NCBI GenBank assembly: GCA_030620115.1
Contig: JAUXFG010000084.1
Span: 1-16,445 of the forward strand
From: Candidatus Fermentibacterota bacterium
Lineage (GTDB): Bacteria > JAFGKV01
Direction: 5' to 3'
Length of the DNA: 16,445 nucleotides
Part shown: piece by piece, positions 1,996 through 16,445 of the stretch
Position numbering within the stretch: the stretch's first letter is position 1
Layout of the letters: the number at the start of each line of letters is the position of its first letter
Position numbers and translations under genes: made by a program
Notes under the pieces: generated by a model
Database searches by the model: none
Seen by the model: the letters and a program-made list of their open reading frames with translations, nothing else
What the model was told of the DNA's origin: nothing

Positions 1996-4900
1996 CTAAG
2001 GGTCTTGTTGGGTGCTGCTTGGCCTTTCCTTCAGTGTGCGGCTCACGGTTTTCAATAGGAGAGTCATCGAAAAGGGCTTCTGGAGATATGGATATCCTCT
2101 GTCTCGAATAGCCTGCCGCCCCGATTTCTCGTCACTATAGCCGCTGGCGAATATCACTCCAAGGCCAGGCCTGATTTCAAGAAGGCGGTCCACAAGCTGG
2201 GGTCCTCGCTCGTCTGGAAGAACCACATCGCTGAAGATCAGATCAAAAAGCCCCCCCTCTCGCTCGAAGATGTCCACTGCCTCCTGCGCGTTCGCGGCTG
2301 AATATACCACATACCCATACTCGGAAAGCACATCTGTAATGAATTTCTTCACGGGTTTTTCATCCTCCACGAGTAGGATTCGCTCTCCGCTCCCTCGCAA
2401 TACTCCTAGTGGAATATCAACTTCCGGTTTTTCCAACGGGTCCGTGGATATGATGGGCACACATACTCTGAAGGTCGTTCCCCGCTCCACCGCACTCTCG
2501 ACATCTATCCATCCGTGATGCTGCTTCACAATGCCATATGCCACAGGAAGACCCAACCCCGTACCGATCCCAGGCCCCTTGGTCGTGAAAAAGGGCTCGA
2601 AGACATGACACAGGGTTTCTGCATTCATGCCTGTCCCCGTATCCTTGACCGAGAGGCAGACGAAATCGCCGGGCCTGGCATCCGGGTGTACTCTGCAATA
2701 CTCCTCGTCTACCTTCACATTCTCGGTCTTGACCAGGATTTCTCCTCCCTCAGGCATCGCGTCTCGGGCGTTGACCACGAGGTTCATGATGACCTGCTCG
2801 ATATTCCCATGGTCGGCCCCGATGGTCCAGAGCCCATCCTGAAGCTCGGTTCTGAGGGTCACGTCTTCCCCGATAAGCCGCTCAAGCATCTTCATCATAT
2901 CTTTGACAAGGGTGTTGGGATTCAGTGGGCTCAGTTCCATGGGCTGTCTGCGGGCAAAAAGGAGCAATTGTCTGGTCAGATTGCTCGCTCGCACTGCGCT
3001 GTGTTCTATCTCCATCAAATCATTGCGGACAGGGTCATCCTCTCCGACCTTCATGAGTGCAAACTCGGAATACCCTTGAATAGCGGTGAGCAGGTTGTTG
3101 AAATCGTGGGCTATCCCTCCGGCCAACTTCCCTACTGCCTCCATCTTCTGGGCTTCGCGTAGCTGCCTCTCACTCTCCCTCAATGCCTTCTCCGCTCGCC
3201 TGCGCTCCGTGATGTCGCGCCCGAAGCTTACCGTGCCGACAACCTTGTCGCCTGCAAGAATAGGGGCCGTATTCACCGAAAGAACGATGAGATCCCCATT
3301 GTCTCTCTTCACTCGCGCTTCGTAGTGCTGGGGCTCTCCATCCAAGGTATGACGAAAGGCGTCAATCACCGCAGGCATGTCTTCTTCCATGATAAGCGGC
3401 GCGAAGGACTTGCCATGCCAATCCTCGAGCCTTTGGCCGGCAATTTCCTCTGAACGTCTGTTGATGAATATGAAATCCCCGTCACTATCCAAGGTCCAAA
3501 TCATGTCATTAGATTGCTCAACCATGGTGCGATACTTTTCCTCGCTCTCCCTCAACGCCTTCTCTGCCTGCGTGCGCTCGGTAATGTCCTGGCCTTGGGC
3601 CACGGTAGCAATCACTGTTGTGCCATCCTCGGCATAGATATTCGCGGAATTCCATAGCACGATGCGTATCCCGCCGCTCCTACGCTGAATGGGGATTTCC
3701 ACGATTTCCCAGTGTTCTCCCTTGGAGGCACTTTCGATCTTCTGTATGCAATGAGCACGACTTGCTTCGGGGAACAGCACGTCCAATGGTTGCTCCTTGA
3801 TTTCCGTCTCATTCCACCCGCTCATCGCTTCAAAAGCCTTGTTGAAGATGGTGACCTTTTTCCCCGGGTCCCAGACGATAATGGGCGCATTGGCATGTCT
3901 GATCAGATTGCTCAGATAGTCGTGCGTTTCTCTGAGCTCCTTTGTCCGGGTCGCCACTTCTTGGGCCAGAGACCGCGACCAGCGATGAGCAGTAACAGAG
4001 AGGGAAGCCCCACCCGCCATCAGTATCAAAACCACGAGGCCCACAGTATACTGTTTGGAGCGTTCAGCGAGCTTCACAATCTCCTCTACTTCACTGACCG
4101 GTGCGCAGACAGCCATGGACCATATCTGGCCGCCGACATGGACCGGGGTGAATGCAACGAGCTTCTCGATCTCTCCCCTCTGACCCCGGTGGCAGCCGCA
4201 AATGTAACGACCTACACCTTCCGTTCCCGCCATCATCCGGGCCTCAATTCGCTCAATGGCCTCGTGGGAGATGTTGGGGTTCATCTCCGCCCGGACCTCC
4301 AAGGCGTTCCGCCCGGTGAACCCCTCCTCGTGATGCGCCAGAAAGATACCGTCGTCGCCCAATAGCCATGCGTAGCCGGTCTTGCCCGATATAATGGGTG
4401 AGACAAAGCTCTGGGCGATCGTGTTTGGATCAAATGAACCCACCAGAACACCCCGAAACTCACCCGATCGCGGATCGCCGGGATCGATAGGCGCAAGAAC
4501 AGTACCGATCGTGTCTCCAATTGCAACGGTCTCCATCCGGTGTTTGAAATAGACGGGAATGGCAATCCTGATCCGCGGGTCGCCCTTTTCATTGGCAAGC
4601 AAACTGGAAACAATGACATGTCCGCTTTCCTTGGACTCTAGGAAGTAGGCCTCTTCACTGTAGTCGCGGCCAATGAGGTCTTGTCGCCAATCTTCAAAGG
4701 GGTAGATAAAGCGGAGGATGCCACGGCTGTCCAAAAGTCGGAGTGAAGTTCTCGATGGCAGGCCCCAATATGTATGTTGCATATACCCCAAACATGCTGA
4801 GGTTATTTGCTGAATGCTTGGTAGTTCCGCCAATGACGACAATGCCGCACTCAATTCCTCGTAGTTGGCTTGGATGGCTGACGCAGCCGACCGGGCCAGT

Positions 4901-5067
4901 ATCAATTGCTGCTGATTGAACTGCTGCACGGCCATCTTCTTTGTCACATTGTGGTGGAGCTCACTGAGGGATACTACCGTGGCGACCCCAATGAAAGTAA
5001 TGGCTATAATGAAAACCTGACGTCGTGCCAGAGGGAGTTTCCTTTTTGAAGCATTCGTAGGACACAT
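1996..5067 (-). CDS. Membrane-bound hybrid sensor histidine kinase (sensor-PAS-PAS-HisKA-HATPase-REC)
   Basis: This 1023-aa inner-membrane kinase has TM1 at residues about 17-35, a long periplasmic Cache-type sensor (about 40-335) and TM2 at about 341-360. These are followed by PAS 1 (about 380-495, ending [12 protein letters not shown]) and PAS 2 (about 508-622, ending [12 protein letters not shown]). HisKA carries the phosphoacceptor H654 in GGIAHDFNN. The ATPase has its N box at N766, DTGTG at 809-813 and a GTGLGL lid near 835. A C-terminal receiver (about 895-1015) has E901/D902, phosphoacceptor D947 and K997, so phosphate can pass H654 to D947. The ATG at 5067 follows an AGGAAGAGGAA-type site (5075-5086, minus strand). 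The sensor contains an unusual C-G-C-H cluster near 290-293. No dedicated output gene adjoins except the converging response regulator. The ligand is unknown. Confidence 0.95.
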
Positions 5068-5279: not shown

Positions 5280-6629
5280 CTAATGATCGCGGAGCAGATT
5301 TCGGGCGAAGGTGTCGAGGTCGCCGGCGGTCAAAAAAAGGAGTGTGATGCGGTGGCCGAGAATCGATCCCAAGGCAACTCCGAGGTCAAAAAATGCCTCG
5401 CAGTACTCCGCCTGGGCGCCGCGTTGGAGAAGTTCCCGCACGATAAGTCGCCCTGAGATGCCGGCGAGGGGGTTCTCTCTCGCGGCGTAGATCCCCGTCA
5501 CTATGGCCTTATGGGCACCCGTGAGTGCAGAAGCGCACTCTCGGTACAGGCGCGCGGTTCGGGAGTAGAGATGGGGTTGGAATACGGCGATCACCGGGTT
5601 GCCCAATTCTTTGGCCGCATTGATGGCGGCGAGAATTTCCGTAGGATGATGGGCATAGTCGGTTACGAGCACTGTCTTGCCCACAGTGCCAAGGATCTCG
5701 AATCTTCGTGCGAGGCCTCCGAAGGTGGAGAGACCCCGGGCAATGCTGTCGGCCTCAACATGGACGAGAGAGGCCGCTGCCGAGGCCAGAATCGCATTTA
5801 TTATGCTATGTTGGCCTTTCATTAGGAACGGCGCCTGGACCATATTCCCGTTGGGTAGCTGGATTTTGATTTGAATGCTCGAATTCTCGCCTCTTTCGGT
5901 TTCCCCCGAGCAATCATGATCCGTGAAGCCTCCACAGGAGATGACATCGTTGGGCCATCGGATTTGCGGCATCCCACCGGGGTCCTCAGCCCAGAGAACG
6001 GCGCCCCCTTCTGCCGCACCCCTTCGCGCAAATCTCACGAAGGAGGCCCACAGCCGATCAAACGAGCCGTAGACATCAAGATGCTCGGCATCCACGTTGG
6101 TGATCACCGAGATAAAAGGAGAGACACGCTCCAGGGTACGATCATACTCATCGGTCTCCATGACGAGGAGATCACCCGTGCCGTAGTACCCGCCTCTTCC
6201 TGAGCCTGACAAGACCGCGCCGATGAGATAGCCGGGGTCGAGCCCGGCAGTGGCCAGAATATGTGCCACCATGGCGGTCACACTGCTTTTTCCGTGGCTG
6301 CCCGCCACGCATATGGTGGGCCTGGATCTGCTGAGTCGCGCCAGGAGCAATGCCCTGGGGAGCACGGGAACTCCTCTTTGCCGCGCCGCGATCAGTTCAG
6401 GATGATCCCTGGGCACGGCGGCGGTGTGAACAAGAGACCTCGCATCGGTGATATGTTCGTGGTTGTGACCGATCCAGATGGTGGCGCCTGCCGCTCTCAG
6501 TTTTTCGATTCGTGGTGAAGAAGCGCTGTCGCATCCAGAGACCTGGAGTCCCTGATCAAGGAGGTATTCCGCAAGCGAGCTCATGCCCGTTCCTCCGATC
6601 CCAACCAAATGCACGGGGGTGGGCAGCAC
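5280..6629 (-). CDS. UDP-N-acetylmuramate--L-alanine ligase (MurC)
   Basis: This cytoplasmic Mur ligase adds L-Ala to UDP-MurNAc using ATP, the first peptide step of peptidoglycan synthesis. At 449 aa it is a normal length. The N-terminal Rossmann motif is GIGGTGMSSLA (10-20). The ATP P-loop is G110-SHGKSS-116, where most MurC proteins have GTHGKTT. The central metal/substrate motif is E158-T-D-E-Y-D-R-T. NVDAEHLDVYG follows, with GQHSIINA near 272, RRFE at 308-311, DYAHHPTEI at 324-332 and QPHLYSRT near 351. The GTG start overlaps the upstream stop by one base (TAGTG, 6631-6627), implying translational coupling. It is the last gene of the glycan operon, away from any division-wall cluster in view. 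The Thr-to-Ser changes in the P-loop look conservative, so activity is likely. Confidence 0.93.
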   Translation of the reverse strand: MLPTPVHLVGIGGTGMSSLAEYLLDQGLQVSGCDSASSPRIEKLRAAGATIWIGHNHEHITDARSLVHTAAVPRDHPELIAARQRGVPVLPRALLLARLSRSRPTICVAGSHGKSSVTAMVAHILATAGLDPGYLIGAVLSGSGRGGYYGTGDLLVMETDEYDRTLERVSPFISVITNVDAEHLDVYGSFDRLWASFVRFARRGAAEGGAVLWAEDPGGMPQIRWPNDVISCGGFTDHDCSGETERGENSSIQIKIQLPNGNMVQAPFLMKGQHSIINAILASAAASLVHVEADSIARGLSTFGGLARRFEILGTVGKTVLVTDYAHHPTEILAAINAAKELGNPVIAVFQPHLYSRTARLYRECASALTGAHKAIVTGIYAARENPLAGISGRLIVRELLQRGAQAEYCEAFFDLGVALGSILGHRITLLFLTAGDLDTFARNLLRDH

Positions 6630-7339
6630 TAGTTGTTGAGTCCCCGCCTAATCCTTGGGAGATAGAGGCGTACTTGGGTTGCCCTGGCCGGTTCGATGCA
6701 CACCGAGTCGACTGCCGAGCCAAGGGATGGCTCGAAACACCAGATCTCTCTGCAACCAGGGGGGATGCCGGGGATCAGAAAGCTCCCCGCGGAATCTGCG
6801 AGGGCCCAGCCGGCGTTGGGCAAGACCACGATATAGGCAAGCTCTCTCTCGGGGCTGAGCTCTAGATCGTAGAGTCTCACTATTCCGGAGCTCTGCAGCA
6901 CCTTCTCTACTTCCAGGCCGGGCAGCGGCAGGGCGATGTTGAAAAGCCGCTGGCCATTCTCTGCCCGGGCGATGATTCTGGCCACTTTCGAACGTCGAGA
7001 TATGATCCGGAGAGGATCGCCCGGCGCAATGACCTGGAACCGGGGAATCATGCCGCTCTCCGTAAGAGTTACGGTGGCTATACTCTGGTCTTCACCAAGG
7101 GAGTCCGTCTCTGCCCAACGGACCACCACCAACGCGTGGGGAAGCGCCGTCCATTCTTTCCAGGAGGAATCGGAACCGCAATACACGGTCCCCGTGACCC
7201 CGCCCGGCAAGAGATCCTCTGCATTGGCGTCATACCAGAGCACCACGAAGACCCAGATGGCCACACAGCGAAGCCACGATCCATACATTCCCGCCTTGCT
7301 ATTCCTTCTCTCGGTAAATCGGCTCATTCGTTTGCTCAA
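6629..7339 (-). CDS. Exported cupredoxin-like / carboxypeptidase-regulatory-like protein, function unknown
   Basis: The 236-aa product has a signal peptide around residues 18-41 (hydrophobic VAIWVFVVLW, then DANA-ED), so it acts outside the cytoplasm. Residues about 45-150 resemble a cupredoxin-type beta sandwich (GTVYCG ... V-I-APGDPLRIISRRS ... ALPLPG). About 150-225 look like a carboxypeptidase-regulatory fold (YIVVLPNAGWALADSAGSFLIPGIPPG). The order matches plastocyanin-like 'methylamine utilization' proteins, but I see no His/Cys/Met copper set. The start is uncertain. TTG at 7339 gives a TTGA overlap with the sulfatase stop, like the other junctions here; ATG at 7327 is possible; ATG at 7288 has the best ribosome site (AAGGCGGGA) and the neatest signal peptide. 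Its end overlaps murC by one base. A structural or adaptor role beside the exported sulfatase-fold enzyme is an inference. Confidence 0.75.
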   Translation of the reverse strand: MSKRMSRFTERRNSKAGMYGSWLRCVAIWVFVVLWYDANAEDLLPGGVTGTVYCGSDSSWKEWTALPHALVVVRWAETDSLGEDQSIATVTLTESGMIPRFQVIAPGDPLRIISRRSKVARIIARAENGQRLFNIALPLPGLEVEKVLQSSGIVRLYDLELSPERELAYIVVLPNAGWALADSAGSFLIPGIPPGCREIWCFEPSLGSAVDSVCIEPARATQVRLYLPRIRRGLNN

Positions 7340-9141
7340 TCGTTGATGGCATAACCCATGGAGATGAGTCGCTCTCGTGTCTCTTCATCGAGTGGGACTG
7401 GTGTGACTCGGAAGAGGCGCGCGCGCTCCTTCCATTCCTGGAGTTCCGCCAGTATCCTCGGCGCCCTGATGTCGGAGGCACTCATGTCGGTCAGCTCATT
7501 CGGGTCATTCTCGAGATCGAAGAAAAGCGTGTCCACATGGACCACCGAATAGGGGAGCCACGAGCTTATCAAGGACCAACCCTTAGATCGCACAGTGGCG
7601 GCCCGGTTATCGGCATGCTGCGCAATGACGAGATCCCTTGGTCCCGAAGCATCGGTCAGCAGTGTTGGGGCGAAGGAAAAGCCACCGCTCTCCAACGGAA
7701 GGGCTGTGGTAAGGAGGTCTAATACTGTGGGGCAGAGGTCCACTGCTGAGATGAGTCCATCCAACCGCTTCCCCGGCGGAACGAGGCCGGGGCTGTGGAA
7801 GATCAAAGGAACGTGGAGCTGCTGCTCATAGATGCCGATATGGTTGAAAAAGATCCCATGTTCGGTTATTGATTCGCCGTGATCCGCGGTGATCACCGTC
7901 AGGGTTTTGGATTCGAGCAAGAGGCTCTTCAAGTGATCGAGGAGCCTGCCCACTTGTTGATCCGTATAGGCGATCTCGGCGCGATACATGGCCTCCGGGT
8001 AAGCAGGATCGGAGATGCCTTTCAGCCACCTGAGCCCCACCGGCCCAAGATGTGTCAGGTCGGCGATACTCGAAAGAGAATCCGCGAGGTTGCGCCTGCC
8101 TTGTAGCTCTGGCCCATTTGGGGAGAAGAGCCGAGCGAAGTCATGTGGCGGATCATATAACATGTGGGGATCGAAGTAGTGAACCCACAAGAAGAATTTT
8201 TCTTCTCGATGCGCTGACAACCAGTCATTCGCGATCTCGGTAACGACCTCGGCCTTCCATTCGGCAGTCGAAGGAACAAGGTAGTCATCGAAACCCTGAT
8301 GAAGGCCTGAGAGCGCGGGATCAAGATGACGTACGCCCACCACCGCGCCTGTGGCGTACCCGGCTCCCTTGAGAATCTCAGCCATGGTGACGAACTGACC
8401 CGCCAGCGGCGTCCGGAGGTCATAGACGCCGTGATCGCGACCATACATCCCGGTGAAGAGGGTGGCAAGAGATGGGTTGGTGACGTTGAAGTTGGTGAAC
8501 ATGTTGAGGAAGATCGCACCGCTCTGTGCCATCCGGTCAAGCCGCGGCGTTCGTGCCAAGCTATCTCCGTAGCAGCCCACATGATCCGCCCTCAAGGTAT
8601 CAATGGTGATGAGGAGGAGATTGCCGGATCCCCGAGGCCTCGATTTGGAGAGTATCCTCGGCTTTGCCCAGACCGCCCAGGAAGCGGAAGGATCCTCGTG
8701 TCCAGTGGAGCGAGCGCTGAACTCAAGCTCGATTGTTGCACCTCTGAATCGTGAAAGATCAATCTTTGCGGCATCGCCTCTATGGTCCGATGGGCCAATC
8801 CGTCCCCGCCATATGGTGTCGGGCAAAGATCCCCTGGTTCTCGCGGCGACACTGAAGAGGATCTCACCGGAAACCGTCGTCTCCAAGGCGGGGGGGCGCA
8901 TGGGCGTAAAGGTAAGCACTGGTGATGGGGGGATGGAGAGTCGTACACGGAAGCTTCCATTGCCCGGTACGAGGATTCCCCTGTATCGTGTCGTGCCCTG
9001 GCGTATGGTGGAGGCCTTTGCGCTCATGCCACAGATCAGGGAGTCGGAGAGAGCTTGGGTCAGATCGAGATAGACAAACCGGTCGGGAGCCCTTGCACAG
9101 CAAAGGATAAAGAACGCGAGGAGGAAGGAGTGCCGAATCAC
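7336..9141 (-). CDS. Exported sulfatase-fold hydrolase/transferase with Thr at the nucleophile position
   Basis: This is a 601-aa member of the alkaline phosphatase/sulfatase superfamily. It has an N-terminal hydrophobic export signal (residues 5-16, with a poor lipobox-like ILCC) and an unassigned beta-rich segment (about 35-165), then the catalytic domain. That domain has D181 (ITIDTLRADH), T221-N-P-S-L-A-T-L-F-T-G at the nucleophile site, H321/D324/H326 (VHYFDPH), D420-H421-G-E and H434. Metal ligands are kept, but the formylglycine Cys of CxPSR is Thr (codon 8479-8481) and the Arg is Leu. True sulfatases need formylglycine; Thr nucleophiles occur in phosphoethanolamine and phosphoglycerol transferases of this superfamily. 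The substrate could be a phospho-substituent on the glycan. The GTG start overlaps the upstream stop by 4 nt (GTGA). Confidence 0.9.
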   Translation of the reverse strand: MIRHSFLLAFFILCCARAPDRFVYLDLTQALSDSLICGMSAKASTIRQGTTRYRGILVPGNGSFRVRLSIPPSPVLTFTPMRPPALETTVSGEILFSVAARTRGSLPDTIWRGRIGPSDHRGDAAKIDLSRFRGATIELEFSARSTGHEDPSASWAVWAKPRILSKSRPRGSGNLLLITIDTLRADHVGCYGDSLARTPRLDRMAQSGAIFLNMFTNFNVTNPSLATLFTGMYGRDHGVYDLRTPLAGQFVTMAEILKGAGYATGAVVGVRHLDPALSGLHQGFDDYLVPSTAEWKAEVVTEIANDWLSAHREEKFFLWVHYFDPHMLYDPPHDFARLFSPNGPELQGRRNLADSLSSIADLTHLGPVGLRWLKGISDPAYPEAMYRAEIAYTDQQVGRLLDHLKSLLLESKTLTVITADHGESITEHGIFFNHIGIYEQQLHVPLIFHSPGLVPPGKRLDGLISAVDLCPTVLDLLTTALPLESGGFSFAPTLLTDASGPRDLVIAQHADNRAATVRSKGWSLISSWLPYSVVHVDTLFFDLENDPNELTDMSASDIRAPRILAELQEWKERARLFRVTPVPLDEETRERLISMGYAIND

Positions 9142-11606
9142 CGGGGCGTTTTCCCGCCGAAGGTGGCGCCAACCTTTTGGCTGACCGATGAGGCAACCCC
9201 GGAGAGCCCGCCTCGTTGGAAGTGAAAGACAAGCCTTCCGGAGTAGTACCTGATCCTTGATGGAAGATCCTTCCTGGCAAGCATGGCCTCGAGATTCCGT
9301 ATGGCAACATCCTTGTCGTATATGGCACGTTGAAGCGCGGCAACCTCGGCGCCCGATGAAACGGCGGCAGCCGGCAAGGCATGTGACCGAAAGAATGGCG
9401 ATCCGCAGAATTCGGCGAGCGGTTCGATGGTCCTATCCCAGGCTAGTTGCTCCTTTACGAGTCTCGCGGCGTTCTTTGATCGTTCCTCGATCTCCCCGGG
9501 AAACAAAAGCACGGTCCGCACAGCGGCCCGAATGGCCTCGGCATCTTCAGGGTCCAATACCCAACCCGCATGATACTCTCTGATCAGATGGGCCAGGTCG
9601 GCATAGTTGTTATAGAGGACGGGGAGTCCGCAGGAGAGATACTCAACGGTCCGCGTGGTATATGCCAGCTCTCGCTCGGGGTTCCGGAGCATCACGTCCA
9701 TGGCCACCGCCGCACGGGAGTACGCAGAGAGCAGCTCTTCGTGGCTCACCATTCCGTGGGAAACCACACGGCGCGATAATGCAAGCTTCTTGATCAGTGC
9801 CTCGAACCGTCTCGTGTCCAGGGGGATGAAGGGGTGTTTGCCTCCGTACAGCTCAAGCCTACCCTTGCCCGCCTTCTCCAGCTCTTCCACCAGCACGGTC
9901 AAGCCAAGGGAGGGGTCTTGCCATGGCAAGAACACGCCTCCGTACACGAACACAGGTTCATGGTTCGTGCGCCAAAGGCGCTGAGGGAGGTCAGGCGAAA
10001 CACAGACGGGAATCTGTCTGATCATCCGGTCGCGGTATGTGACGCCCGCCATCATGAGCCAGGGGATGAAGTAGGAGAGCTGCCGGTCTCCGGCACAGGT
10101 GAAGAAATCGGCCCGAGCGATGCACGCCAGCTTGGTCCGCATATTGGTTTCTATGTCGAGATGCCCCTGAATAGTACGTTCCAGGAGGTGAGGTCCATGG
10201 AAGTCGAGAGCAATGGGGCGCGGGCACTCCGAGAGTCGTTCCAGGAGGGGCCAACCGCAGGCCACTACTACCGTGGCGCCGGATTTCTGAACTAAAGAGG
10301 CGAGGTTTTCCTCATCCCACGCCAGATCGGCAATCTCAGAGGGAACATTGGGATACGCCCTCAATGCCGCCTTGGGCATACTGAACCGGACTGAGAGCCC
10401 TTTGGCTCGGAGCCCCTGGCCGAGCCCCCATGCCCGGAGCCCGGCACCGGTAGTAGGAAGGCCGGCGAGCGGCAGAATATCAGGGCTGATGAGCAGTACA
10501 TGATTCCCGTTTTGAGGAGCTGCTCGCGCGGGGCCAAAACCCCGCAGCAAATTTTGTTGAATGCGCGCATAGCCGCGCCCGGGATGAATCGGCTCATCGG
10601 GCTTCCCGAACTGAGAAAGGACCTCACTATCTGTCCGGCGTCGTTTTTCCTGGATGAGCTCCCTCTTCGATTGCATCCGGGGGAGGAGGCTGACCGCGTC
10701 GGTGATGGCAGCGAGATGGGCTGCCGCCTCGGGCTCCAGATTGACGGATCCCTGCGGCAGAGAGGGCGGTGCGAGACGAAATCGATTTCTCTGGATGTCG
10801 GATCCCGAGAGCGTCCGAATGCCCGCCAGGAGCAGAGCGGCCGAGAGGGTCCGTCCGAGGTTCTCCTCATCATAGTTCTTGAACATGGAGAGAAGCGCAT
10901 TTCGCTCCAGAAAGAAGCGTTTCTGCCCCCTGGAAAGCCGCGCCGATGTGGCGCCGTGATGGTGATAGACCACGGATTCAGGGATCCAGCGGAGCGTATA
11001 GCCGAGGACCCAGGCCCGCCAGCCGAAATCGACATCTTCATAGTAGGCGAAAAAATCCTCGTCGAACCCGCCGATATCCAGGAATTCCTCTCTCCTGACC
11101 AGCATGGCGCCGCCGTTCAAGAAGATGGAGTTTTCCGCTTCATACAAATCCGGCTTATGGGGGAGCTGAAAGTCACGCTGAAACGCACGGGCTTCGAAGT
11201 TGAGATCTCCCCCTGCGAAGTCGACACGTGTGCCGTCCCAGCTAAGGACCTTACTTCCCACCGCGATTCTCTGGGGGTCTTCTTCCATGGCATGTACCAG
11301 CGGCGTGAGCCAGCCTGGGTCGACCTTGAGATCGTTGTTGAGAAATGCCACATACGGTGATTCCGCCGCGCGAGCACCTCGGTTGCAGGCCATCGCAAAT
11401 CCCGTATTCCGATCAAGGAGAAGATGATTGATCTTCGGATGCTTCGTGTTGAGCCAGCGATCAGTGCCGTCTGATGAGGCATTGTCTACGATGGTGAAGT
11501 GGAGTTTTTCCTTTGGATACTCGGTTTGTAGATATGTAGGCACTGATTGCTTCAGAAGAGAGAGCCCATTGTGCGTGGGAACCGCGATAGTGACGTCGGG
11601 GGTCAT
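9138..11606 (-). CDS. Bifunctional glycosyltransferase: GT2 domain fused to GT4-like domain
   Basis: The 822-aa protein is probably cytoplasmic or peripheral to the inner membrane. GT2, residues about 3-245, has VDNASSDGT (40-48), the NND metal/nucleotide motif (90-92), GGAMLVRREE (165-174) and FDEDFFAYYEDVDFG (181-195). A linker (about 250-365) leads to a GT-B GT4-like domain (about 368-735) with LLISPDILP, an acceptor-side TTGAGLRAWGLGQGL, a YGG hinge (near 555 and 587) and TTRTVEYLSCGLPVLYNN near 650-667. A C-terminal tail (750-822) has a short helical repeat and a basic end. Two activities in one chain suggest two consecutive sugar additions to a growing glycan. The GT2 half is clearly paralogous to the next gene upstream. 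The ATG overlaps the upstream stop by 4 nt (ATGA). Donor and acceptor sugars cannot be read from sequence. Confidence 0.93.
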   Translation of the reverse strand: MTPDVTIAVPTHNGLSLLKQSVPTYLQTEYPKEKLHFTIVDNASSDGTDRWLNTKHPKINHLLLDRNTGFAMACNRGARAAESPYVAFLNNDLKVDPGWLTPLVHAMEEDPQRIAVGSKVLSWDGTRVDFAGGDLNFEARAFQRDFQLPHKPDLYEAENSIFLNGGAMLVRREEFLDIGGFDEDFFAYYEDVDFGWRAWVLGYTLRWIPESVVYHHHGATSARLSRGQKRFFLERNALLSMFKNYDEENLGRTLSAALLLAGIRTLSGSDIQRNRFRLAPPSLPQGSVNLEPEAAAHLAAITDAVSLLPRMQSKRELIQEKRRRTDSEVLSQFGKPDEPIHPGRGYARIQQNLLRGFGPARAAPQNGNHVLLISPDILPLAGLPTTGAGLRAWGLGQGLRAKGLSVRFSMPKAALRAYPNVPSEIADLAWDEENLASLVQKSGATVVVACGWPLLERLSECPRPIALDFHGPHLLERTIQGHLDIETNMRTKLACIARADFFTCAGDRQLSYFIPWLMMAGVTYRDRMIRQIPVCVSPDLPQRLWRTNHEPVFVYGGVFLPWQDPSLGLTVLVEELEKAGKGRLELYGGKHPFIPLDTRRFEALIKKLALSRRVVSHGMVSHEELLSAYSRAAVAMDVMLRNPERELAYTTRTVEYLSCGLPVLYNNYADLAHLIREYHAGWVLDPEDAEAIRAAVRTVLLFPGEIEERSKNAARLVKEQLAWDRTIEPLAEFCGSPFFRSHALPAAAVSSGAEVAALQRAIYDKDVAIRNLEAMLARKDLPSRIRYYSGRLVFHFQRGGLSGVASSVSQKVGATFGGKTPR

Positions 11607-12727
11607 GGCTCGCCCCCGAACCCAAGATGCTCAATGCCCATGGCCTTCATGATAATTTTGTGCGCAATCGCATAGTTCTTATCGCCTAAGAGTGGCGGTA
11701 TGGCATAGTCGCCAAATAGGGGGAGGATGTCGCGGTCATCCCGGCGGCGCATGGCCTGTATCGCCGCTCGTTTCCCCATCCAAAGCTCCCAATTCTCCGC
11801 CATGTCTTCTAGTGCCAAGAGTTGGGCGGCGGAAAGATCGCTGATGGGGTAGTGCCCCTCCGGGGGTGGTGTTTCGGGGAGAGGATCGCTTGGCAGGAAC
11901 CCGGAATAGTCAAATGAGGAGTATGCACTGGCGCGAGCGAACACGGCCCATAGAGATGCCGCCAGGGCAGTCCAGAGATGCCCCTCGGAGTAGTTCTTGA
12001 GAATGGTGCAGAGTGCATTTCGTTCGTAAAGCCTCATCCTCGGCGGGAAGGGGAGCCGTTTTGCCGTGCCCTGATGCCTGTGGTGCACACGCGAGCGAGG
12101 CACAAGCACCATCTTGTATCCCGCCAACCAGCTTCTCCATCCAAGATCAATGTCCTCGAAGTAAGCAAAGAAATCCTCATCGAAGCCCCCTAATCCGAGG
12201 TAGAGCTCCTTCCTTACCAGCATGGCTCCCCCGCAGAGAAAAAGTACCTCCCGGGATGCCTCTTCTAGTTCGCTCAATGGTTGCCCTTGATTCTTGTGGT
12301 GGGCATGGCCCGAGAACGAGACCTCCCCACCGGCGAAATCGAGCTTCTCCCCCGACCAATCCAACAGGACTGAACCTGCAGCCACGATTTCCGGATCGTT
12401 TTCCAGCGTCTCCAAGAGCGGCTCGAGCCAGAGGGGCTGCACCTCTGTGTCATTGTTCAGGAGAGCAACGTATTGGCAGTCAGCAAGATGCGCGACCCCA
12501 ATGTTATTAGGCTTGGCAAAACCGCAGTTCTCCTTGAGGGGGAGATACTCGATACTCTGCGACTTCAACCATTCTTCGGTTCCGTCGGTGGATGCATTGT
12601 CCACCACGAGGAGCCGGATCCCTTGGGCATAGTCCTGTGTGTTCCTCTGCAGCGCAGGCACAAACGATCGGAGATGATCCAATCCATTGTAGGTAACGGT
12701 CACCACCCCTACGCGTGATGCGCTCAT
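11603..12727 (-). CDS. Family 2 glycosyltransferase
   Basis: This 374-aa inverting GT-A transferase, rhamnosyltransferase-like in style, has VVTVTYNG at 8-15, VVDNASTDGT (41-50), NND (91-93), CGGAMLVRKE (165-174) and GFDEDFFAYFEDIDLGWRSW (181-200). After the catalytic core a C-terminal extension (about 255-374), rich in Pro and acidic residues, has no domain I recognise. Nearly every motif is shared with the GT2 half of the downstream fusion (DFAGG, GGAMLVR, DEDFFAY), pointing to tandem duplication. ATGA overlaps at both ends place it inside the coupled operon. It probably adds one sugar to a surface polysaccharide; the specificity is unknown. Confidence 0.92.
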   Translation of the reverse strand: MSASRVGVVTVTYNGLDHLRSFVPALQRNTQDYAQGIRLLVVDNASTDGTEEWLKSQSIEYLPLKENCGFAKPNNIGVAHLADCQYVALLNNDTEVQPLWLEPLLETLENDPEIVAAGSVLLDWSGEKLDFAGGEVSFSGHAHHKNQGQPLSELEEASREVLFLCGGAMLVRKELYLGLGGFDEDFFAYFEDIDLGWRSWLAGYKMVLVPRSRVHHRHQGTAKRLPFPPRMRLYERNALCTILKNYSEGHLWTALAASLWAVFARASAYSSFDYSGFLPSDPLPETPPPEGHYPISDLSAAQLLALEDMAENWELWMGKRAAIQAMRRRDDRDILPLFGDYAIPPLLGDKNYAIAHKIIMKAMGIEHLGFGGEP

Positions 12728-14562
12728 TCCTCGGGATGTCTTCTTACAAGGTTGTAGAGGCGGTAGGGAATAGTGGAACGAACCTTCTCACCCCACGCCT
12801 TGAGCTCGGCCACTTGTTCGCCTCTGGCGGTAAGCTCCGATCCCAGACGTGAGAGTTCTTGGCTCTGGGAGTTGGCCATGGCTTTGAATTCCGCGAATTC
12901 TCGATGCATCTCGGTGATCTTGTGCTCCAGATCGGAGATCTTCGTGTCTCGTTTCCTGACGACGCCCTCCCAATACCGGAGCTGTTTGCTCACCTCGTCG
13001 ATGAGTTCCTTCTGCTGTGCGATCTGTTGCTCCAACCCTTCCCGGAGCTGCGTGAAGAGTTTTTCTTGTGCCTGGAATTGGTTTTTCCAGTGGTCCCTAT
13101 CGATGACGAGCTTCGAGATATCCTGTCCCAGCTCTGCGGATTGCTGTCGTTCCTGCGCAAGGAGTTCATCGAGTTTTCTTGTTTCCTGCTGGGCCAGATC
13201 ACCGGTATGCCGGGCTCCAATAACGGCCTCTTTGAGCTCCTCGATGTGCTTCTCGAGATTGCCGGCATGGTTCCTCGTGAGCTCCAACTCCCGTGTCACC
13301 TTTTGTCGGGAGTCGGAAGCCAAGGAAATATGAGAACGCCAGTCAGGCGAACGCCGAGGTCGCCTGGCCCACTGGACCAACGCACGCGTCGTATGTTCGA
13401 CATTGAATCGATTGCTTGCATGCGCATAGGCTTTGGCCGCCATTTTCTTGAGCTCTTCAGGGTGTGACGATGCCCAGAGCAGGTGTGAGGAGAGGGCCTC
13501 CGCATCTCCGGGCGGAAACGCAAGCGCACCCTTGGATCGTTCGAGTTCGCGGCTGAGTTCCGACAGCCTGGAGGTTATGATGGGTACGCGACACGCAATC
13601 CATTCCATGAATCGAGTCTTGGTTCCCAAGCGTACTTCCAGAAGGCTCCGATCTGAATTCACCGCCACGTCGGCCAAGGCATAGTACTGCATGAGTGATG
13701 AATAGGGGACCCAACCTTGCAGATGGAATCGTTCCTTGAAGTTGGAATGCTCAACGAGTCGGGTAAAATGCAGATACGTCGACGTGTCCTGCTCTCCCAG
13801 ATCACCGCCGGTGGCGACAAAATGCATCTTGTTGGTGCGGGCCATGGCCTTCTCGATCCCAAGAAAGAGAGTGTCGACATCGCACCATGTGTTGAATCCG
13901 CCTGACCACAGGACCACGAAAGAATCCTCCGGCACAAGCTCTCCGCGCAATGGATCGTTCTCCAAGGGCGTGATGGCTGGATCGAGACTGCAGGGGATCG
14001 TTTGAGTCATCCGGTAGTACGCCGTTCTCCGACTCATCCGGCCGGACATGGCCAACTGCCCTTCCAATGCCGACGATTGTGCCCGGCTCACTGCGGAAAA
14101 GCGGTCGCCTCGTTCGAGAATGGGTGTCAGCATGTCGTAGTGATGCTGAATGGTCTCGTCCTCGCCCAAAAGCGCGGCTTTTGCCTGGCCTTCTGCTAGG
14201 GGGTCCCCAAAAAGATCGGCCCACACCGGCAGATCGTAGGCAACTTGAACCGCACGGAAGGCCGGAAGAAAGGTCACCGCCACGATGGCGCGAGGTTTCC
14301 ATTCGTCGAGCAGCTTGGCAAGCCTTGGTCCGGTCATGAACTCTTCATCGCTCAACGCAGCATATGTGATGGATTTCATATCCGGCGGCAATGGAGCTGA
14401 CGGATCAGCATCAGCGTTCTCGTAGAGACGTAGCGCCAGAGAGACATCGTGTTTCCCCGCCAACAATCCTCTCACGAATTGAGCGGTCCGAAGCCCCGGG
14501 GCATGCACTCTACTGGCATCCTGGCCCGGGAGCGGTCCCATTCCCAGAACGGCGATTTTCAC
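12724..14562 (-). CDS. GT4-like glycosyltransferase with C-terminal coiled coil
   Basis: The protein is 612 aa. The start is GTG at 14562, not an upstream in-frame codon at 14619. A perfect AGGAGG (14575-14570) lies 7 nt before it, the GTGA overlap with the upstream gene matches neighbouring junctions, and the protein then opens with the Rossmann strand MKIAVLGMG. Residues 1-400 form a GT-B fold: the N-lobe with ADLFGDP near 115, and a C-lobe with VLWSGGFNTWCD (217-228), LQGWVPY (281-287) and a donor-site region ending KTRFMEW (315-321). Residues about 415-590 are a long charged heptad-rich coiled coil, ending in STIPYRLYNLVRR. Similar coiled-coil tails are seen on polysaccharide assembly and capping proteins, so it could scaffold the complex or measure chain length (inference). 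Confidence 0.9.
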   Translation of the reverse strand: MKIAVLGMGPLPGQDASRVHAPGLRTAQFVRGLLAGKHDVSLALRLYENADADPSAPLPPDMKSITYAALSDEEFMTGPRLAKLLDEWKPRAIVAVTFLPAFRAVQVAYDLPVWADLFGDPLAEGQAKAALLGEDETIQHHYDMLTPILERGDRFSAVSRAQSSALEGQLAMSGRMSRRTAYYRMTQTIPCSLDPAITPLENDPLRGELVPEDSFVVLWSGGFNTWCDVDTLFLGIEKAMARTNKMHFVATGGDLGEQDTSTYLHFTRLVEHSNFKERFHLQGWVPYSSLMQYYALADVAVNSDRSLLEVRLGTKTRFMEWIACRVPIITSRLSELSRELERSKGALAFPPGDAEALSSHLLWASSHPEELKKMAAKAYAHASNRFNVEHTTRALVQWARRPRRSPDWRSHISLASDSRQKVTRELELTRNHAGNLEKHIEELKEAVIGARHTGDLAQQETRKLDELLAQERQQSAELGQDISKLVIDRDHWKNQFQAQEKLFTQLREGLEQQIAQQKELIDEVSKQLRYWEGVVRKRDTKISDLEHKITEMHREFAEFKAMANSQSQELSRLGSELTARGEQVAELKAWGEKVRSTIPYRLYNLVRRHPEE

Positions 14563-15497
14563 CTCATCACCTCCTGAGGCACAAATGTCGGTGGTTCTCT
14601 CAGTCTTTGCACGAGCCACCGTGGCATCTCAACTATGGTCGCGGCACGTGCCAAACGGGCGCCGCGACGCGCGTGAGAGGACAAGGCGGATCCGTACCAT
14701 GCCTTCTCCGCAGGAAGGAAGATATCCTTCAGTGCGGCCGTCGTATAGTGCTTCAGTACAAATCTCAACCTGTTCCTCTGATACCTGAAGTGGTACTGTA
14801 GGCTCTCCGGACCCGAGGTCTGCGCTTCAAAATGTCGAGCCGAAGCCCACGGAATGACCAATGACATGACTCCCGTGTTCGCCGCCCGCACGCAGAAATC
14901 GGCCTCTTCAAAGTAGGCAGGACTGAATCGAACGTCAAAGCCACCGAGCTGCTCGAGGATGTGTCGCCGGACGAGAAAGAGCGCACCGGTGACATAGTCG
15001 CAACGAAGAAGGTCATCTTCCATGGCCAGCATATCTTGCTCGTGTCTTCCCCGATGCCTTGTCATGCCGTTGGCCAGTATGATTCCACCGAGATGCTGGA
15101 TGATTCTTCCCTCCGGGCCAAGCAGCTTGACACCCAAGATGGCAGGCTGATACCTCATCGCCTCACGACGCAAGGTGTCGAGACAGCCAGGATCCGGCAT
15201 AAGATCCTGATTCACGAAGAGAAGAAGGTCCGTGGTCGCGGCCTCGGCGCCTCGGTTGCATGCCCGTGCGAAACCCAAGGCTCGGCGGCTGTGGAGGATC
15301 TTGAGATGTTCGCCAAAAATCCGTGAGAGCTGATCTGCTGAACCATCCCGGGAGCCATTATCCACTACGACCAGAGAATCATCTTGCTGGAGCTGCGACA
15401 GGAGCGTCTCTACACAGGACAGAATCAGCTCGCCTCCGTTGTGTGAGGGCACTATTGCGGTCAGTGACGGAAAGCCCTTGGCGGATTCTTCAGGCAT
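14559..15497 (-). CDS. Family 2 glycosyltransferase
   Basis: The 312-aa protein starts at ATG 15497, which overlaps the upstream stop by one base (TGATG, 15499-15495) behind a GGAAAG site. A longer in-frame start at 15587 would run through the upstream gene and add about 30 low-complexity residues. It has a GT-A fold: TAIVPSHNGG (13-22), VVDNGSRDGS (44-53), an NQD motif (96-98) in place of the more usual DxD or NND, and, further on, a YVTGALFLVRR segment and a GGFD..F..AYFEEADF segment, the expected acceptor-loop region. It is more distant from the other two GT2 domains than they are from each other. It probably adds a sugar early in assembly of the same glycan. Confidence 0.92.
   Translation of the reverse strand: MPEESAKGFPSLTAIVPSHNGGELILSCVETLLSQLQQDDSLVVVDNGSRDGSADQLSRIFGEHLKILHSRRALGFARACNRGAEAATTDLLLFVNQDLMPDPGCLDTLRREAMRYQPAILGVKLLGPEGRIIQHLGGIILANGMTRHRGRHEQDMLAMEDDLLRCDYVTGALFLVRRHILEQLGGFDVRFSPAYFEEADFCVRAANTGVMSLVIPWASARHFEAQTSGPESLQYHFRYQRNRLRFVLKHYTTAALKDIFLPAEKAWYGSALSSHARRGARLARAATIVEMPRWLVQRLREPPTFVPQEVMR
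14570..14575 (-). promoter_or_regulatory. Shine-Dalgarno AGGAGG that decides the GT4-like start
   Basis: Read on the minus strand, this perfect anti-16S match lies 7 nt upstream of the GTG at 14562 and inside the last codons of the upstream GT2 gene. It is the strongest ribosome site in the operon and rules out the longer reading frame from 14619. Confidence 0.8.
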
Positions 15498-16445
15498 CAG
15501 CTTTCCGGCAGACTGAAGCAAAGCCGGAAGCCAACCCAGAGGCCGTGCCAGCCTTGGGGGAGCGCTTGCCGTGCGGCGGCTCTGCACTGATCAGCGCCGG
15601 CAATCCAGGATCCTCCTCGAACCACTCTCAGCCGGGCGAGGCCTGCTTCGAGATCATGGCACCACTCTGATATCCCGCCGGCCATATCTCTCACGCCATA
15701 CGGGGAAATATCCCCATCGAATACGCCTACAGGTTCCAACCCTGGCGGGCCGCGGCGAGAGTCTCGCATTCTGCAGAGACGAGGATGGAAGGCATTGCCC
15801 CACGGATAGATCCTTCCTTGTGCGCCCCGGGCGGCCTTTTCCCACTCCACCTCATTGGGGAGGCGATAGGGTCTTCGCTCCCTCTCGCTTTGCCATTGGC
15901 AATACCGTGATGCCGCTTCCCATGACACGCCGATGACGGGGAGCTCCAGCTCGAAATTGCCTCGATACCTGACGCCGCCGGCGATGACCAATCTCGAAGG
16001 AATGGGGAGATGCTCATCCTGGGAAGTCCTCATCACCAGGGAGGTTCCCTCTTCGTCCTTTGGCAAGAGCGATTCAATATCGGCTTCTTCGTCAACAATT
16101 TCGTTGAGGAATTGGCAGTACTGACGGAAGGTGACAGGAAGGCGCGACATACATATGTCCCCTACCATCCGCTCCCGGGGGAAGCTGGCGCCTGGCGCTC
16201 CTGGGTCTCCGCCGAATTGGAATCTGCCGGCAGGGATGTGCAGGAACTCATCGCCGACCTGGGCTTCGTGATAGAGTCTCACCACGGCGTGTTGCTCGCA
16301 GGCTGTCTTGAGTTCAATCGCCAATGTAGCAGACGCGCAGCCCAGCGCTTGGAGTGAAATAAGGTATGGCCCCGGCGCGAGCCCCTGGGAAGAGAAGGGA
16401 GTCTCGGCTGCCGCGGGCTCTTCTTCCGGCGCCAGGATCGCCTCC
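15497..16445 (-). CDS. C-terminal part of a SUMF1/FGE-fold protein (partial, continues past right edge)
   Basis: The frame is open from the stop at 15497 to the window edge, so the true start lies outside. An internal TTG at 16324 is not convincing. Entering from the edge, a Pro/Glu-rich linker leads to GLAPGPYLISL, then VGDEFLHIPAGRFQFGGD and the SUMF1/FGE domain (ELPVIGVSWEAASRYCQW, YRLPNEVEWEKAARG, YPWGN, SPYGVRDMAGGISEW, VVRGGSWIAGADQC, GLWVGFRLC). The 'PGPYLISL' linker before 'GD.F..IPAG.F..GGD' resembles, from memory, Ser/Thr kinases with a C-terminal SUMF1 domain; the kinase part would be beyond the edge. The catalytic Cys pair of true FGE is not found in the GGSW segment, where only one Cys (codon 15584-15586) remains, so it is unlikely to make formylglycine. 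The stop overlaps the next gene by one base. Confidence 0.85.
   Translation of the reverse strand, partial: EAILAPEEEPAAAETPFSSQGLAPGPYLISLQALGCASATLAIELKTACEQHAVVRLYHEAQVGDEFLHIPAGRFQFGGDPGAPGASFPRERMVGDICMSRLPVTFRQYCQFLNEIVDEEADIESLLPKDEEGTSLVMRTSQDEHLPIPSRLVIAGGVRYRGNFELELPVIGVSWEAASRYCQWQSERERRPYRLPNEVEWEKAARGAQGRIYPWGNAFHPRLCRMRDSRRGPPGLEPVGVFDGDISPYGVRDMAGGISEWCHDLEAGLARLRVVRGGSWIAGADQCRAAARQALPQGWHGLWVGFRLCFSLPES

Follow-up and report, generated by a model that had tools for sequence, protein, structure and literature searches.

Organization of the operon

The sequence analyzed here (the window, 16,445 bases) represents the entire contig C70 of an uncultured bacterial genome (G000, approximately 4.1 Mb in 296 contigs) and encodes on its minus strand an operon with an enzyme of the sulfatase fold, a protein with a SUMF1 domain, the domain of the formylglycine-generating enzyme (FGE), and four glycosyltransferase (GT) genes located between these two. 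The initial annotation described the operon as overlapping and interpreted the two outer genes as a sulfatase–FGE pair that lost its formylglycine (FGly) chemistry and was repurposed. Start/stop overlaps between neighboring reading frames are present throughout, and the operon extends beyond position 7336 to include a small protein and MurC. The genes are, in the order of transcription:

15497..16444, minus strand: end of a Ser/Thr kinase with kinase, nSTAND1, and C-terminal SUMF1 domains, truncated 5' by the contig edge (PF03781, E = 7.5e-36)
14559..15587, minus strand: glycosyltransferase family 2 (PF00535, E = 3.7e-21; orthologues in synteny)
12724..14619, minus strand: GT4-like glycosyltransferase with a coiled-coil-like C-terminus (PF13524/PF13692/PF00534; synteny)
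11603..12727, minus strand: glycosyltransferase family 2 (PF00535, E = 4.4e-18; synteny)
9138..11606, minus strand: fused GT2-GT4 glycosyltransferase (PF00535 at residues 6-129, PF00534 at residues 550-715; synteny)
7336..9141, minus strand: predicted exported sulfatase-fold (alkaline phosphatase superfamily) enzyme of the Thr nucleophile type (PF00884, E = 4.1e-45; AlphaFold model)
6629..7339, minus strand: small protein with an N-terminal hydrophobic segment (synteny; the CarboxypepD_reg match of an orthologue is sub-threshold)
5280..6629, minus strand: MurC, UDP-N-acetylmuramate--L-alanine ligase (TIGR01082, 379.6 bits, cut-off 335.1; synteny)

A sulfatase-fold enzyme with a threonine at the nucleophile position

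The sulfatase-fold open reading frame (ORF; 7336-9141, minus strand) reads NVTNPSLATLFTG at its nucleophile site. Thr221 lies within the segment NVTNPSLATLF, and TNPSL aligns under CAPSR of 6hhm, that is, in the Cys column of the FGly sulfatases, in agreement with the T-N-P-S-L that was initially annotated at this site. The enzyme consequently lacks the (C/S)xPxR motif with a Cys or Ser nucleophile; the Arg of CxPxR is replaced by Leu225, and the Ca-ligand set Asp-Asp/Asp-Asn of the S1 sulfatases reads D181-T182/D420-H421 (Thr182 for Asp, His421 for Asn). The altered ligand set on its own is a weak criterion because conservation of the second Asp reaches only 76% in true sulfatases and His is a known substitute for the Ca-ligand Asn (PMC5066984). 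Seven residues (D181, T221, H321, D324, H326, D420, and H421) are invariant across 38 aligned relatives, as is a W-x-H-x-x-D-P-H stretch. The features of the enzyme are:

9082..9141, minus strand: predicted signal peptide (N-termini of the window protein and of the orthologues at loci L051 and L052)
8647..9072, minus strand: N-terminal beta-sandwich, CBM51-like (predicted model and structure matches)
8599..8601, minus strand: Asp181, predicted metal ligand (invariant in 38 sequences)
8479..8481, minus strand: Thr221 codon, at the position of the FGly-forming Cys/Ser (alignments)
7879..7884, minus strand: Asp420-His421, predicted metal ligands (invariant in 38 sequences)

An AlphaFold model of the enzyme (pLDDT 83.9) displays the S1 sulfatase fold, with 6hr5 as the best match (Z 38.7, root-mean-square deviation 2.5 over 343 residues), and the enzyme belongs to the same sequence family as the FGly sulfatases (SulfAtlas S1, PF00884). 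A Thr at the metal site acts as the nucleophile in MCR-1, EptA, LtaS, and YejM, which belong to the same superfamily and, like the window enzyme, combine this Thr with acidic and His metal ligands (PMC7576196). The conserved D181, T221, D420, and H421 fit this precedent and make it plausible, as the initial annotation proposed, that the protein is a Thr-nucleophile phosphoryl enzyme. Unlike EptA/MCR, LtaS, and YejM, the window enzyme carries no multi-helix membrane domain and is closer in fold to the S1 sulfatases, and the NCBIfam models of EptA, MCR, and YejM match it far below their cut-offs (best match YejM with 38.3 bits against a cut-off of 825; EptA/MCR <25 bits). It shares the TxPS motif, the invariant D/T/DH residues and the WxHxxDPH pattern with uncharacterised Thr-type PF00884 proteins, from which it differs by an additional CBM51-like N-terminal domain and by its kinase-GT operon setting.

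Alternatively, the Thr enzyme could hydrolyze sulfate or another ester in a reaction that works without formylglycine. The fold and the best sequence matches, which are S1 sulfatases, agree with such an activity, and no published assay of a Thr-type enzyme from this subfamily was found. However, there is no demonstration that FGly can form from Thr (PMC5066984), and the CxPxR Arg is changed to Leu225, the second Ca Asp to Thr182, and DN to DH. This alternative is considered improbable.

The lipobox is clear in the orthologues of the enzyme (IGGC and AAGC) and the enzyme is therefore probably an exported lipoprotein that is anchored in the membrane. The N-terminal 150 residues, modelled alone (pLDDT 82.9), form a beta-sandwich with the CBM51 fold: 7js4 is the best match (Z 14.0, root-mean-square deviation 2.5 over 135 residues, sequence identity approximately 10%), and the structures ranked 1-10 are all CBM51 (Z 12.3-14.0) while other sandwiches mostly score 10-11. 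The modelled fold suggests that the N-terminal domain is likely a glycan-binding module.

The SUMF1 domain belongs to the C-terminus of a Ser/Thr kinase

The second protein was initially annotated as a separate gene product, but the ORF in the window encodes the end of an approximately 1260-residue Ser/Thr kinase whose gene is cut at the contig border. Two features lie within this part of the gene:

15521..16252, minus strand: SUMF1 (FGE-like, C-type-lectin fold) domain (PF03781 match)
15584..15616, minus strand: GGSWIAGADQC segment with a single Cys and no FGE Cys pair (comparison with human FGE and orthologues)

The ORF (15497-16444, minus strand), which represents the C-terminal 315 residues of the protein, matches PF03781 with 124.5 bits (cut-off 23.3) and reads RGGSWIAGADQCRAAAR at the GGS segment. 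Human FGE contains GGSYMCHRSYC at this position and the window protein GGSWIAGADQC, in which the first Cys is replaced by Ala, so that the FGE active-site pattern GGSxxCxxxxC with its Cys pair is absent. The initially reported loss of the pair is thus correct, although one of the two residues is retained: the single Cys, C287, occurs as ‘CR’, a form shared with other SUMF1 proteins that are not FGEs. The closest solved sequences are ToxD (7spq) and SUMF2 (1y4j), which together with GldK/PorK are pair-less homologues that share the SUMF1 domain with FGE; the window protein differs from FGE by the missing Cys pair and by its fusion to a kinase. Region 16253-16444 of the window appears PEGA-like by eye, and Pfam gives no match there.

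The N-terminal kinase part of the gene was identified at the edge of a second contig of the same genome (C47, 13-2877, minus strand), where Pkinase and nSTAND1 score above their cut-offs. In an alignment to a 1260-residue orthologue the C47 part covers residues 12-946 and the window part residues 948-1256. No sequence overlap was found between the ends of C47 and C70, and their adjacency is deduced from this continuous alignment (946/948) together with the synteny, which includes the same genes upstream of the kinase on C47 as in a related genome (G001, record JAFGKV010000143.1). The orthologues in G001 and in a second related genome (G002, record JALOPK010000016.1) are single chains of 1260-1266 residues with an N-terminal Pkinase and a C-terminal PF03781 domain. 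The HGDLK and DFG kinase motifs are present in all three genomes, and the protein is a Hanks-type kinase that combines HxD and DFG motifs with SUMF1 on a single chain; only the copy in the source genome is split over two contigs. Another Pkinase-SUMF1 fusion was found in genome G130. Within PHROGs, the SUMF1 part matches one unnamed family and otherwise only a ‘kinase’ label, and a search of the literature on kinase–FGE domain pairs and on glycosyltransferases of the Fermentibacteria found nothing direct.

The SUMF1 domain is no FGE, and its place at the end of a Ser/Thr kinase makes a function in recognition or signaling most likely, in line with the initial suggestion that it now does something else. 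The same order of an nSTAND1 followed by an FGE-type lectin domain occurs in proteins that were proposed to be sensors, putatively of antigens (PMC10907252), from which the kinase described here differs by its N-terminal protein kinase domain and by an Arg at the Walker A Lys position. This proposal supports the sensor idea but is also compatible with a role in defence.

Gene order and co-occurrence

The order kinase-SUMF1, GT2, GT4, GT2, GT2-GT4, sulfatase, small protein, MurC is common to the source genome, G001, and G002, which belong to two genera of one family of uncultured bacteria (Candidatus Fermentibacteria / Eisenbacteria in the record names). Sequence identity among the three genomes is 55-58% for the sulfatase and the SUMF1 orthologues (56-58% for the SUMF1 domain). 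An upstream block is also syntenic (L131 462-4601; L138 3265-7422) and contains a DUF6754 protein, a hydrolase of the metallo-beta-lactamase fold, and three further proteins that are membrane proteins or unassigned.

These observations bear on the possibility that the kinase-nSTAND1-SUMF1 protein serves as a sensor in conflict or defence and is merely located upstream of glycan genes. The putative antigen sensors described above and the nSTAND1 match over the cut-off in the source genome agree with this idea. However, no defence genes were seen in the neighborhood and no diversity-generating setting was apparent (the diversity-generating reverse transcriptase was not searched for), the identity of the SUMF1 domain among the orthologues is that of a domain that is not hypervariable, and the gene order with the biosynthetic genes is conserved. 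A defence function is therefore considered unlikely.

Co-occurrence of the sulfatase-fold enzyme and a SUMF1 protein across genomes was analyzed at 78 loci outside the family that encode relatives of the enzyme. At only three of these do the fetched flanks include a SUMF1 gene, a lower bound since the flanks were short at some loci, and the GT cluster or a related GT-kinase cluster was found in none of the fetched flanks (0/78). Locus L107 appeared to be an exception by score, but its SUMF1 protein is located approximately 9 kb away, is unrelated, and shows no kinase in the part that was seen. The synteny is thus confined to one family, and the pairing represents an operon feature of a single lineage and not a recurring two-gene module.

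Furthermore, no transmembrane-like stretch was found in the two complete kinases (mean hydropathy over 19 residues peaks at 1.46 and 1.63). A kinase without a membrane helix and an enzyme that is predicted to be an exported lipoprotein would be located in different compartments, which makes direct contact of the mature proteins unlikely. The kinase, the GTs, the enzyme, and MurC might simply be co-transcribed envelope genes, with no direct functional link between kinase and enzyme, and the mixed nature of the syntenic upstream genes (the metallo-beta-lactamase fold, DUF6754, and other membrane proteins) is consistent with this. However, the start/stop overlaps and a gene order shared by two genera point to selection for co-expression, and the absence of any such link is rated as rather unlikely.

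Background frequency of Thr-type enzymes and pair-less SUMF1 domains

The source genome contains 24 PF00884 matches, two of which are pieces of one gene. The nucleophile column of the 23 distinct genes contains Thr in 22 cases, Arg (as aligned) in one, and Cys in none. Six SUMF1 matches were identified, and the Cys pair is absent from all five with a readable GGS segment (0/5); the sixth match is truncated where its contig ends. Neither an FGE nor a radical-SAM sulfatase maturase (anSME) was found in the genome; the latter was considered as an alternative source of FGly and rejected, as the best match (47 bits) is far below the cut-off of 349. Both variants are also common elsewhere: of 109 sequences collected at 80 public loci, the window included, 105 carry Thr, two Ser, and two Cys, and the Cys pair is absent in 36 out of 39 rows of a SUMF1 sample (window counted twice). 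A sample of PF00884 proteins from other genomes, collected with the Pfam model, contains Cys in 16 out of 26 sequences, showing that the nucleophile column does detect Cys where it is present, and Thr occurs in 30 of the 59 Pfam seed sequences of PF00884 (PMC5066984).

Formylglycine chemistry is absent from every readable sulfatase-fold and SUMF1 gene of the genome, and the coincidence of both variants in one operon is what the background predicts. Neither window protein is capable of this chemistry, as initially stated, but the two are ordinary variants whose joint presence needs no special explanation. That a former sulfatase–FGE pair was kept together after both lost FGly chemistry, with the SUMF1 domain now recognizing its sulfatase-fold partner, is consistent with the presence of both genes in one operon in three genomes. 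It is nevertheless extremely improbable: Thr is what the sulfatase-fold proteins of this genome and of its relatives normally carry, and a missing pair is equally normal for SUMF1; the SUMF1 domain is fused to a cytoplasmic kinase and the enzyme is exported; and the co-occurrence at other loci is limited to the three SUMF1 genes, with no GT cluster and with an unrelated non-kinase protein as the strongest case. As an example of a lost enzyme–activator pair the locus has little support.

The PF00884 ‘sulfatase’ and PF03781 ‘FGE’ labels can be misleading, as the 24 and 6 matches in this genome come with no sign of FGly chemistry. The PF00884 set, nearly all Thr-type, represents an expanded, uncharacterised family in the lineage; several of the genes have large N-terminal extensions and some are clustered (contigs C203, C65, and C133).

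A putative envelope-glycan operon

All parts of the operon are of known kinds, and we favor, with moderate confidence, a surface- or envelope-glycan operon that combines GTs, a kinase-borne SUMF1 sensor, and an exported Thr-nucleophile phosphoryl enzyme with a CBM51-like domain. The four cytoplasmic GTs would assemble a glycan, and the cytoplasmic Ser/Thr kinase would sense a ligand or partner through its SUMF1 domain (as a sensor or for docking) and probably tune the pathway by phosphorylation. Outside the cell, the exported lipoprotein would bind the glycan through the CBM51-like domain, and Thr221, with a metal on Asp181, Asp420, and His421, may hydrolyze or transfer a phosphoryl (phosphodiester) group on it. 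If the regulatory part is correct, kinase-borne SUMF1 domains can be tested as sensors in envelope-glycan operons.

Several observations weigh against this interpretation. The Walker A motif of the nSTAND domain reads SGRTS, with Arg replacing Lys, in all three orthologues (L131 4779-8561; L132 10280-14080; L138 1-3000). Among the structure matches listed for the enzyme, the close solved structures are all FGly sulfatases or FGly phosphonate monoester hydrolases and no solved Thr-type member of the subfamily was recognized, so that a Thr-type enzyme of exactly this subfamily is without a solved guide. No polymerase or flippase gene was identified adjoining the GTs, which makes the type of glycan a guess. 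Sequences and models establish the domain identities, the Thr with its invariant ligands, the missing Cys pair, the kinase fusion, the synteny, the predicted export, and the CBM51-like fold, and we infer the substrate of the enzyme and the direction of its reaction (hydrolase or transferase), as well as the SUMF1 ligand and the regulation of these enzymes by the kinase.

A more specific form of the glycan-operon interpretation is that the kinase, with its degenerate nSTAND domain, might read a cytoplasmic glycan or lipid-linked precursor through SUMF1 and phosphorylate products of the operon, for example the GTs or MurC, which would couple the assembly of the surface glycan, completed outside the cell by the CBM51-Thr phosphoryl enzyme, to peptidoglycan synthesis; this is regarded as very unlikely.

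Other features of the window

Downstream of MurC, region 1996-5067 appears, as judged by eye, to encode a hybrid sensor histidine kinase that includes PAS-like and receiver regions. Copies of a repeat with a unit of approximately 87 bases (GAGATTGCTTCGTCGCTATTCTCCTCGCAATGACAGAG) are located at 588-785, and the ORFs 531-833 and 616-894 read as translations of this repeat and not as genes.

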